From Candidatus Peribacteria bacterium (lineage in GTDB: Bacteria; Patescibacteriota; Gracilibacteria; Peribacterales; Peribacteraceae), in assembly GCA_023245765.1 (NCBI GenBank), contig JAHFJP010000003.1, forward strand, positions 27,178 through 62,414: a stretch of 35,237 bases of DNA. The letters are read 5' to 3'. Shown here piece by piece: positions 30,506-32,940 of this stretch. How positions within the stretch are numbered: the stretch's first letter is position 1; every line of letters starts with the position of its first letter. A model generated the notes under the pieces. The model was given only the letters and a program-made list of their open reading frames with translations. It made no database searches and was not told the DNA's origin. The translations under genes and the position numbers were made by a program.

Positions 30506-30596
30506 TAAAAAAAATCACCTCTCCGGGAGGTGATGGGAAACGAATACCAAATCACCTCGCGTCAGGGCGTGACGACGACTACGACGAGCGCGAGGG
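30506..30596 (-). promoter_or_regulatory. Val-tRNA-responsive transcription attenuator of the valS operon
   Basis: Four minus-strand segments. Segment 1 is CCTCGCG (30595-30589), inside the leader peptide just before the valine codons. Segment 2 is CGCGAGGTGAT (30561-30551), right after its stop codon. Segment 3 is ATCACCTC (30534-30527). Segment 4 is GAGGTGAT (30521-30514) followed by about eight T. Pairings 1:2 (7 bp), 2:3 (8 bp, antiterminator) and 3:4 (8 bp, terminator) are all perfect. A ribosome stalled on Val codons covers segment 1, frees segment 2 and prevents termination. Confidence 0.88.
30514..30534 (-). terminator. Attenuator terminator hairpin
   Basis: Minus-strand ATCACCTC-CCGGA-GAGGTGAT with a T-tract (complement of 30506-30513). 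Segments 3 and 4 of the attenuator. Confidence 0.9.
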
Positions 30597-30615
30597 AAAT
30601 GGAACGTAGAATCAT
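30562..30615 (-). CDS. Valine-rich leader peptide of the valS operon
   Basis: A 17-codon ORF, MILRSISLALVVVVVTP, starting ATG 30615 and ending TGA 30562. Five consecutive valine codons (GTC GTA GTC GTC GTC) sit at codons 11-15, preceded by three Leu and two Ile codons. The ATG lies 7 nt after the -10 box, so translation should start at or near the 5' end of the transcript, tightly timed with polymerase. As in proteobacterial ilv and pheST leaders, its job is to be translated, not to make a functional product. A longer upstream in-frame start would begin before the promoter and is rejected. Confidence 0.85.
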   Translation of the reverse strand: MILRSISLALVVVVVTP

Positions 30616-30622
30616 TAACTGT

Positions 30623-30650
30623 AATTTAATGAAGAATAGATTGTTGTCAA
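30623..30650 (-). promoter_or_regulatory. valS operon promoter
   Basis: Minus-strand TTGACA (30650-30645), 16 nt, TAAATT (30628-30623), then 7 nt to the leader-peptide ATG. Confidence 0.75.
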
Positions 30651-30700: not shown

Positions 30701-30732
30701 AAAAAAACGGCCACCGTTTGCACGGCGCCGTT
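30701..30732 (-). terminator. Minus-oriented intrinsic terminator
   Basis: AACGGC/GCCGTT outer stem and CCGT/ACGG inner stem around a GCAA loop, followed on the minus strand by seven T. No clear minus-strand gene precedes it, so it may end a small RNA or shield the valS promoter from upstream transcription. Confidence 0.65.
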
Positions 30733-30884
30733 CGTTAGAGAGAAAGAACAATAACTTCCGCCTTGAGGTTGGAAATCGCCGAAGTTTATACAGGACGGAA
30801 ACTTCGCCTGCAAGAGGCATTCGGCATCGGATAGGCCCGAATTGCTGGTCAGAAGACTTCAATGTGATGAAAGCGACTTTTTTC
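30733..30884. other. Non-coding stretch upstream of the small-protein cluster
   Basis: No convincing gene. The inverted repeat CTGGTCAG/CTGACCAG (about 30845-30903) spans the promoter region of the next gene. The minus-strand terminator at 30701 suggests minus-strand transcription here. Confidence 0.4.
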
Positions 30885-31603: not shown

Positions 31604-31966
31604 ATGCCCACCTTCGATTTCCAGTGCCGCAAGTGCAATCACGTCTTCGAACACTCTCGTCCGTTTGGGAGTATCGAACTGCCAGCATGCCCCGCATGCG
31701 GATCGAAGCGTTCGGAGAAGTTAATCGCGCCGCCTGCGGTGCACTTTAAAGGAAGCGGATGGTATAAAACCGATAGTAGGGGCGGAGCACCTGTGGTGAG
31801 CGCAGTCGAACCACGCAACGCCCCGGTCGATGCCACATCTTCACCGAAGAAGGACGAAAAAAAATCCGATGACGCAAAAACAGAGACGAAACCTGCGGAA
31901 AGCAAACCGACGGAGAAGAAAACGGAAAAAAACGATGTGAAGAAAGCTCCCGACAAAAAATCATGA
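31604..31966 (+). CDS. FmdB-type zinc-ribbon protein with charged tail
   Basis: 120 residues. The first 50 are an FmdB-like putative regulatory zinc ribbon: MPTFDFQCRKCNHVFEHSRP with CxxC at residues 8-11, closed by PACPACGSKRSEKLI (second CxxC near 29-32). It continues FKGSGWYKTD, also typical of the family. The last 60 residues are a low-complexity Lys/Glu/Pro tail (KPAESKPTEKKTEKND), probably disordered. The function of FmdB proteins is not settled. An extended -10 box (TGC-TACAAT, 31589-31594) lies 9 nt before ATG. Its stop overlaps the start of the methyltransferase gene (ATGA). Confidence 0.85.
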   Translation: MPTFDFQCRKCNHVFEHSRPFGSIELPACPACGSKRSEKLIAPPAVHFKGSGWYKTDSRGGAPVVSAVEPRNAPVDATSSPKKDEKKSDDAKTETKPAESKPTEKKTEKNDVKKAPDKKS

Positions 31967-32940
31967 CCGCCACGAGCCATGAGCAGCAGCGCGAACTCTG
32001 GAATCAAGAGCACCGCTCGCCGCAGATGGTGAAGAACATGGACTACGAGACGCCCTCAAGTGGCATCACACTCTTTGCAGAGTGGATGACGGCACAAGGT
32101 CGATCATTGTCCGGATTGACAGGCGTGGAAATGGGATGTGGGAAGGGTCGCAACAGCATTTGGCTCGCCGAACAGGGCGCGATAATGACGGGATTTGATT
32201 TCTCGGAGGTTGCGGTCGAGGAATCACGCAGACGCGCGACCGTGAAGAAGATTCCCTTCGACGTTTTGATGCATGACGCGACCGTAACGTGGCCATGGCC
32301 CGATGAATCCTTCGATTTCGGCATCGATTGCTTCGCCTCCACGGATATCGAGAACCCAGAGGGACGCGCTTTTTCAAGGAATGAGTTTATGCGGGTGCTG
32401 AAACCCAGTGGAATTCTCTTCGTGTACGCGATTTCCAACAAGAGTTCATTCCATAAATACATGTTAGAGACTGCGCCGCAGAAGGAACGCAACACGTACG
32501 CGCACCCGAGCGGGAAGATCGACAAGATTTATGATGAGAGGGAGTTGCGGAGATTCTATGACTCGTTCTTGATGAAGGAATTTCGGGTCATCAACAAGCC
32601 GAAGGGCGGTATGTTCTATGGAAAGGAGTACGACTGTGAGAATTTCTGGTTGATCGTTGAGAAACCCGCGGCGATTCACCTCTCACCAGGCCTCCGGAAC
32701 TTCTTGAATGATGAACTGCAGATGACCTCATGGCCGTCAAAACCGAAAACACAGCTGATCGCATTGAACTATTTCGCCGAGAAGTTTGAATTCGAGAAGA
32801 AGTACACCGAAAAAGAGGTAAACGACCTCCTGACGGCGTTCCACACCTTCAAAGATCCCGCCCTTCTTCGACGTGAGCTGTATATGAAGAGGTTTTTGGA
32901 TAGAAAAAAAGATGGAAGTGAATATTGGCGGACGAAATAA
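31963..32940 (+). CDS. SAM-dependent methyltransferase fused to a DUF2087 domain
   Basis: 325 residues. Residues 1-235 are a class I methyltransferase: motif I is TGVEMGCGKGRNSIWLAEQG, followed by MTGFDFSEVAVEESRRRA (SAM-binding acidic residue), FDFGIDCFA, and EFMRVLKPSGILFVYAIS. Residues 240-325 match DUF2087: LRNFLNDELQMTSWPSKPKT, QLIALNYFAEKFEFEKKYTE, KEVNDLLTAFHTFKDPALLR, RELYMKRFLDRKKDGSEYWR. DUF2087 is a winged-helix-like module, often found alone or beside regulators. The substrate is unknown; nucleic acid or protein modification is possible. The start overlaps the FmdB-type gene by 4 nt. Confidence 0.85.
   Translation: MTATSHEQQRELWNQEHRSPQMVKNMDYETPSSGITLFAEWMTAQGRSLSGLTGVEMGCGKGRNSIWLAEQGAIMTGFDFSEVAVEESRRRATVKKIPFDVLMHDATVTWPWPDESFDFGIDCFASTDIENPEGRAFSRNEFMRVLKPSGILFVYAISNKSSFHKYMLETAPQKERNTYAHPSGKIDKIYDERELRRFYDSFLMKEFRVINKPKGGMFYGKEYDCENFWLIVEKPAAIHLSPGLRNFLNDELQMTSWPSKPKTQLIALNYFAEKFEFEKKYTEKEVNDLLTAFHTFKDPALLRRELYMKRFLDRKKDGSEYWRTK

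Follow-up and report, generated by a model that had tools for sequence, protein, structure and literature searches.

A probable leaderless valine attenuator upstream of ORF227 and valS in a Candidatus Peribacteria bacterium, with threonine leaders before thrS in its own genome and in relatives

A small-genome Candidatus Peribacteria bacterium carries, in an 843-nt intergenic region upstream of an orphan gene (ORF227) and valS, a Val leader element that is likely to be a ribosome-mediated transcription attenuator, which would sense charged tRNA-Val and gate the ORF227-valS unit. We favor this interpretation because the anatomy, which is read directly from the DNA, is complete and because an independent family of Thr leaders precedes thrS; from these we infer ribosome stalling, antitermination, the direction of the response and its target. 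The element lies in the window, i.e. the whole stretch of 35,237 nt that was analysed. The nearest named relatives of the host by valS are Candidatus Peribacteria and Peribacteraceae MAGs, which bears out the CPR-type host assumed in the original prediction from this DNA.

Introduction

To our knowledge, very little work has addressed how Patescibacteria regulate their genes. Ribosome-mediated attenuation has classically been described in Proteobacteria, in the trp, his, ilv and pheST leaders. Leader-peptide attenuation in Actinobacteria acts on trp, leuS and trpS (PMC1262725), and leaderless leader peptides precede leuS, trpS, thrS and alaS in Streptomyces lividans (PMC8079986). In Bacilli, His leader peptides with a patchy distribution precede hisS*/hisZ paralogs (PMC2965389). 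Our search, which covered open-access papers, returned no paper on leader peptides in Patescibacteria and none linking valS to a leader peptide, so that any priority is provisional. The element described here seems to represent a known type of mechanism in a lineage for which we found no earlier report, and it seems to be used there repeatedly.

Results

The promoter, 17-codon ORF, five Val codons, stop codon, three perfect pairings and T-tract of the original prediction were all confirmed on the minus strand between 30650 and 30507 (Table 1). The geometry it had assigned to a ribosome-mediated attenuator was confirmed as well, with segment 1 before the Val codons, segment 2 abutting the stop and segment 3 shared. 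The leader promoter matches the consensus at 10 of 12 positions and its -10 hexamer ends 7 nt before the ATG, with transcription predicted to start at about 30616, 0-1 nt 5' of that codon. The leader ORF reads ATG ATT CTA CGT TCC ATT TCC CTC GCG CTC GTC GTA GTC GTC GTC ACG CCC TGA. All three pairings are perfect: 1:2 (CCTCGCG:CGCGAGG, 7 bp) overlaps the leader ORF, and 2:3 (GAGGTGAT:ATCACCTC) and 3:4 (ATCACCTC:GAGGTGAT) are each 8 bp long. The GAGG of segment 2 is common to 1:2 and 2:3, and segment 3 is common to 2:3 and 3:4, making antiterminator and terminator mutually exclusive. Segments 2 and 3 are separated by 16 nt, and the terminator consists of ATCACCTC-CCGGA-GAGGTGAT followed by seven T. 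The free fold of the leader contains 1:2 plus 3:4 (-34 kcal/mol) and has a z-score of -3.37, with none of 200 dinucleotide shuffles being equally stable.

Table 1. Positions of the attenuator and of other features in the window.
Feature	Position	Strand	Description
Leader promoter	30650-30623	minus	-35 TTGACA at 30650-30645, 16-nt spacer, -10 TAAATT at 30628-30623
Leader ORF	30615-30562	minus	MILRSISLALVVVVVTP; 17 codons plus TGA, ATG at 30615
Regulatory Val codons	30585-30571	minus	GTC GTA GTC GTC GTC, five successive
Segment 1	30595-30589	minus	CCTCGCG; just 5' of the Val codons, pairs with 30561-30555
Segment 2	30561-30551	minus	CGCGAGGTGAT; first base directly after TGA
Segment 3	30534-30527	minus	ATCACCTC; terminator 5' arm and antiterminator 3' arm
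Segment 4	30521-30514	minus	GAGGTGAT; terminator 3' arm
T-tract	30513-30507	minus	T7 of the intrinsic terminator
ORF227	30469-29786	minus	227 codons; orphan, first gene after the attenuator
Candidate valS -10	29796-29791	minus	TACACT, 6 nt 5' of the valS start codon; would belong to a separate leaderless promoter
valS	29784-27079	minus	valine--tRNA ligase; NCBIfam NF004349 and TIGR00422, both over cut-off
Noncoding element	30705-30805	minus	promoter TTGCAG-N17-TATAAA, intrinsic terminator CTCTAACGAACGGC...GCCGTTTTTTT
Fusion gene	31963-32940	plus	methyltransferase domain fused to DUF2087

In the mechanism that we propose, RNA polymerase would start at the leader ATG or 1 nt before it and a 70S ribosome would initiate on the nearly leaderless ATG. 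When Val-tRNA is plentiful, the ribosome would reach the stop codon and cover the abutting segment 2, so that the 3:4 terminator forms. When Val-tRNA is scarce, it would stall on the Val run and cover segment 1, the 2:3 antiterminator would form, and polymerase would read through into ORF227 and valS. A transcript that is not translated would form 1:2 and terminate by default.

We located valS in 223 genomes from the class, together with 80 named loci, and scanned 170 upstream regions. Just two of the 170 hold a convincing Val-run ORF with a terminator, namely the window and L035, from a genome of another family of the class (G051). The L035 leader has a TTGACT-like promoter region, encodes MKSFQTVVVVQKKTLV with GTC x4, and is followed by the terminator CCGTC-ACCCA-GACGG-T7; its fold z-score is -2.99, valS lies directly downstream, and the element is independent of the one in the window. 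The third match of the scan, in an Oscillospiraceae MAG (L141), has scattered Val codons and was rejected, and the weak Val matches among the 80 named valS loci, from other phyla, included none that was convincing. Conservation of the Val element, on which the original prediction had itself proposed to be judged, did not emerge: the other three genomes of the genus (G001-G003) have valS without the Val run, and no Val leader was found in the other two members of the family of G051. The Val element is patchy among relatives; it was therefore either gained locally or retained where others lost it. Among the genomes examined, both that carry a Val leader (the window genome and G051) carry a Thr leader as well.

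Two further observations concern regions upstream of valS. In L227 (G039), a Val-rich short ORF, MIYSVIKSQNNTAYSAPEKILVVLIVLFVFLSL, ends 11 nt before valS and has no terminator; we do not claim it as an attenuator, and it could be a decayed or translation-coupled leader. The conserved noncoding element listed in Table 1 also occurs upstream of valS in two genomes of the same genus (L010, 81% identity; L007, 75%), has no Rfam match and, judging from its promoter and terminator, probably encodes a small RNA about 90 nt long. Elsewhere in the window lies the methyltransferase-DUF2087 fusion gene.

When the aaRS loci of the same genome were scanned for runs of any amino acid followed by a terminator, the single match was at thrS (identified by TIGR00418, 640 bits), where a Thr leader, MLYTPSVIRFITTTATTTTLL, with a terminator lies 80 nt before the gene. 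No cognate leader besides this one was found at the ileS, pheS, hisS, glyS-type and other aaRS loci tested in that genome. Thr leaders also precede thrS in G001 and G051 (MNTVSTTSTTTTTLLSPEVV; L268). Across 70 thrS regions (30 related loci plus 40 more, with G051 among the Thr cases), a Thr-run ORF lies just 5' of thrS in 21, and 14 of these 21 pass the strict terminator rule. Several of the 21 are weaker: L212 has just four Thr in six codons, and the strict T-tract rule excludes six others (L210, L226, L255, L256, L261 and L263). Scanning the same 70 regions for all 20 amino acids gave 14 cases for Thr, one for Arg and none for the rest. Fifteen thrS loci of further families yielded two more Thr runs with hairpins (MFAFPAIFTTTTTG and MKNTTTTTTTITE, both in family f6). 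Thr leaders before thrS thus span three families, and about 20 of 68 family-level regions hold one.

The Thr leaders are laid out as in the window, with segment 2 (GGAAGGGG) starting at the stop or shortly after it, CCTTCC as segment 3 and GAAGG as segment 4, and thrS lies directly downstream. We used 30 leuS and 30 pheS regions of relatives as negative controls, and none held a credible cognate leader; a Leu-rich ORF, weak and distant and with a poor hairpin, and a single Ile ORF, which is non-cognate, were rejected there. The thrS products of the window genome (L158, 1063-3399) and of G001 (L198) carry at the N terminus a deacylase domain of YbaK/EbsC type (TIGR00011 match at 10-158), which is absent from thrS of most relatives.

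We examined the stems across leaders with a partner-swap permutation, in which duplex energies between the leader ORF (strand one) and the post-stop region (strand two) were compared with those after swaps between genomes. The set is nearly all Thr leaders (Val leaders make up 2 of the 15 representatives, which are one or two per genus), and swapping leaves some shared ancestry in. The 1:2 stem was better with its own partner, as 0 of 20,000 permutations matched it for 23 leaders and 1 of 50,000 for the 15 representatives. For 2:3, narrower segment borders gave a non-significant result with 23 leaders (1611 of 20,000), and widening segment 3 by 6 nt gave 29 of 50,000 with the 15 representatives, a statistic that depends on borders adjusted after the first result and should be weighed less than that for 1:2. 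A consensus fold of aligned Thr leaders was uninformative, as MAFFT cannot align the variable stems.

The leader ORF had also been proposed to be leaderless. This is probable, since 15 of 22 leaders have a TANNNT hexamer ending 5-10 nt ahead of the start codon, compared with 12% in shuffled upstream sequence, but the feature itself has already been described before aaRS genes in Streptomyces lividans (PMC8079986). No Shine-Dalgarno-like motifs were found upstream of the 22 leaders. The same hexamer precedes valS in 32 of 49 genomes of the family versus 9 of 52 valS genes outside it, and thrS in 41 of 48 genomes that have no Thr leader. Among Peribacteraceae thrS genes with a Thr leader, 14 of 20 also have TANNNT before the thrS start, often as TACCCT or TATCCT at 8-9 nt. 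The window genome and G001 have no TANNNT before the thrS start, and the attenuator promoter is probably the sole promoter of thrS in both. From these hexamers, near-leaderless starts look like a habit of Peribacteraceae that the leaders follow. In most Peribacteraceae (e.g. L016, L019 and L045), TANNNT, often TACACT, is found 6-10 nt before valS and thrS starts, a pattern that suggests leaderless transcription to be widespread in this family and not in the rest of the class.

ORF227, which directly follows the attenuator, matches nothing in Pfam, PHROGs or NCBIfam, and no relatives were found among 59 related genomes, a phage collection and viral contigs. Its GC3 is 0.57 versus 0.73 for valS and its codon score and bias are weaker than those of valS, although the annotated frame is nonetheless the best; we take ORF227 for a gene that is young or acquired, or else for a barely coding frame. 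A gap of 1 nt separates it from valS. The attenuator had been predicted to lie in front of valS, which holds for a presumed operon, but ORF227 is the direct neighbor and valS comes second. The predicted control of valS is likewise weakened and may be partial, because valS keeps TACACT 6 nt before its ATG, a candidate leaderless-type -10 whose position is conserved across the family. In the window, valS may be transcribed from a separate promoter, in which case the attenuator would add regulated read-through or act chiefly on ORF227. The extent to which valS depends on the attenuator is uncertain, since valS seems to keep its own promoter.

The likeliest alternative is a true Val-tRNA-sensing attenuator whose target is ORF227, with valS driven mainly from its own leaderless promoter, so that the proximity of valS would mean little. 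ORF227 directly adjoins the attenuator, the valS -10 is shared with most relatives as given above, and the leader and ORF227 both appear new to the window species. However, read-through would reach valS across the 1-nt gap and the cognate amino acid of the leader fits valS, while the Val leader of G051 directly on valS and the Thr leaders directly on thrS favor an aaRS gene as the target. We consider ORF227 as the target somewhat unlikely, and gating of the ORF227-valS unit remains our preferred interpretation.

If the terminator were constitutive and followed an unrelated short ORF whose Val run had arisen by chance from GTC-rich sequence, this would agree with the species-specific occurrence of the element; slippage can create a GTC repeat, and attenuator-like arrangements turn up by chance over many genomes. 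Nevertheless, dinucleotide-shuffling the 843-nt intergenic region 20,000 times produced four successive Val codons in a short ORF 49 times and five 6 times, and four together with a terminator within 70 nt only 2 times (five with a terminator must be rarer). Also at odds with chance are the perfect 1:2 and 2:3 pairings, the cognate match to the operon, and the presence of Thr leaders at thrS both in this genome and in relatives; we therefore regard a chance origin as improbable. When both strands of the window were scanned over their full length for runs of four in six codons of any amino acid with a terminator, the Val element had only one companion, a GTG-start Arg ORF that is non-cognate.

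It is very improbable that the leader acts as a riboregulator that binds protein or tRNA (in T-box fashion or through ValRS autoregulation) with an incidental ORF: T-boxes are known to control aaRS genes of Firmicutes, and autoregulation is known for E. coli thrS (PMC2965389), but Rfam covariance models, including that of the T-box, had no match at the window leader or at 19 related loci, and it is the cognate codon run that recurs across genomes, not a conserved RNA core.

Discussion

The Val and Thr leaders resemble proteobacterial attenuators in their short ORF with a cognate run, mutually exclusive 1:2, 2:3 and 3:4 stems, intrinsic terminator, and stop codon beside segment 2. They differ in phylum, in lacking a Shine-Dalgarno sequence, in an ATG that coincides with the predicted 5' end or lies a few nt from it, and, for the Val leader, in having valS downstream instead of a biosynthetic operon. 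With the leaders of Streptomyces they share cognate codons, a place before aaRS genes and, probably, leaderless leader ORFs (PMC8079986, PMC1262725). The Streptomyces leaders, however, often have no clear U-tract terminator or only 1-3 cognate codons, and none is listed at valS, whereas those described here have 5 Val or 5-8 Thr codons and full terminators. Like the His leaders of Bacilli (PMC2965389), they are cognate leaders on aaRS-type genes outside Proteobacteria with a patchy distribution, but amino acid, phylum and gene are different. As with the T-box, the response to uncharged tRNA would take place upstream of an aaRS gene; a T-box, in contrast, binds tRNA directly without translation.

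A broader proposal, which we put forward tentatively and which could well prove wrong, is that members of the class Gracilibacteria repeatedly and independently evolve leaderless cognate-codon attenuators before aaRS genes (in three families at thrS and in two at valS), placed upstream of a default leaderless promoter and serving as the main means of sensing amino-acid starvation. In the genome studied here, the Val device would also make the orphan protein inducible by valine shortage.

Patescibacteria are host-dependent and often unable to make amino acids, and control of the charging enzymes is therefore plausible; controlling these rather than biosynthesis would suit amino-acid-auxotrophic members of the group. 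If our interpretation is true, ribosome-mediated attenuation extends to Patescibacteria, where it operates from leaderless ORFs and is gained and lost quickly, and the leaders would be ready-made reporters of amino-acid starvation for uncultured bacteria that could be read in metatranscriptomes.
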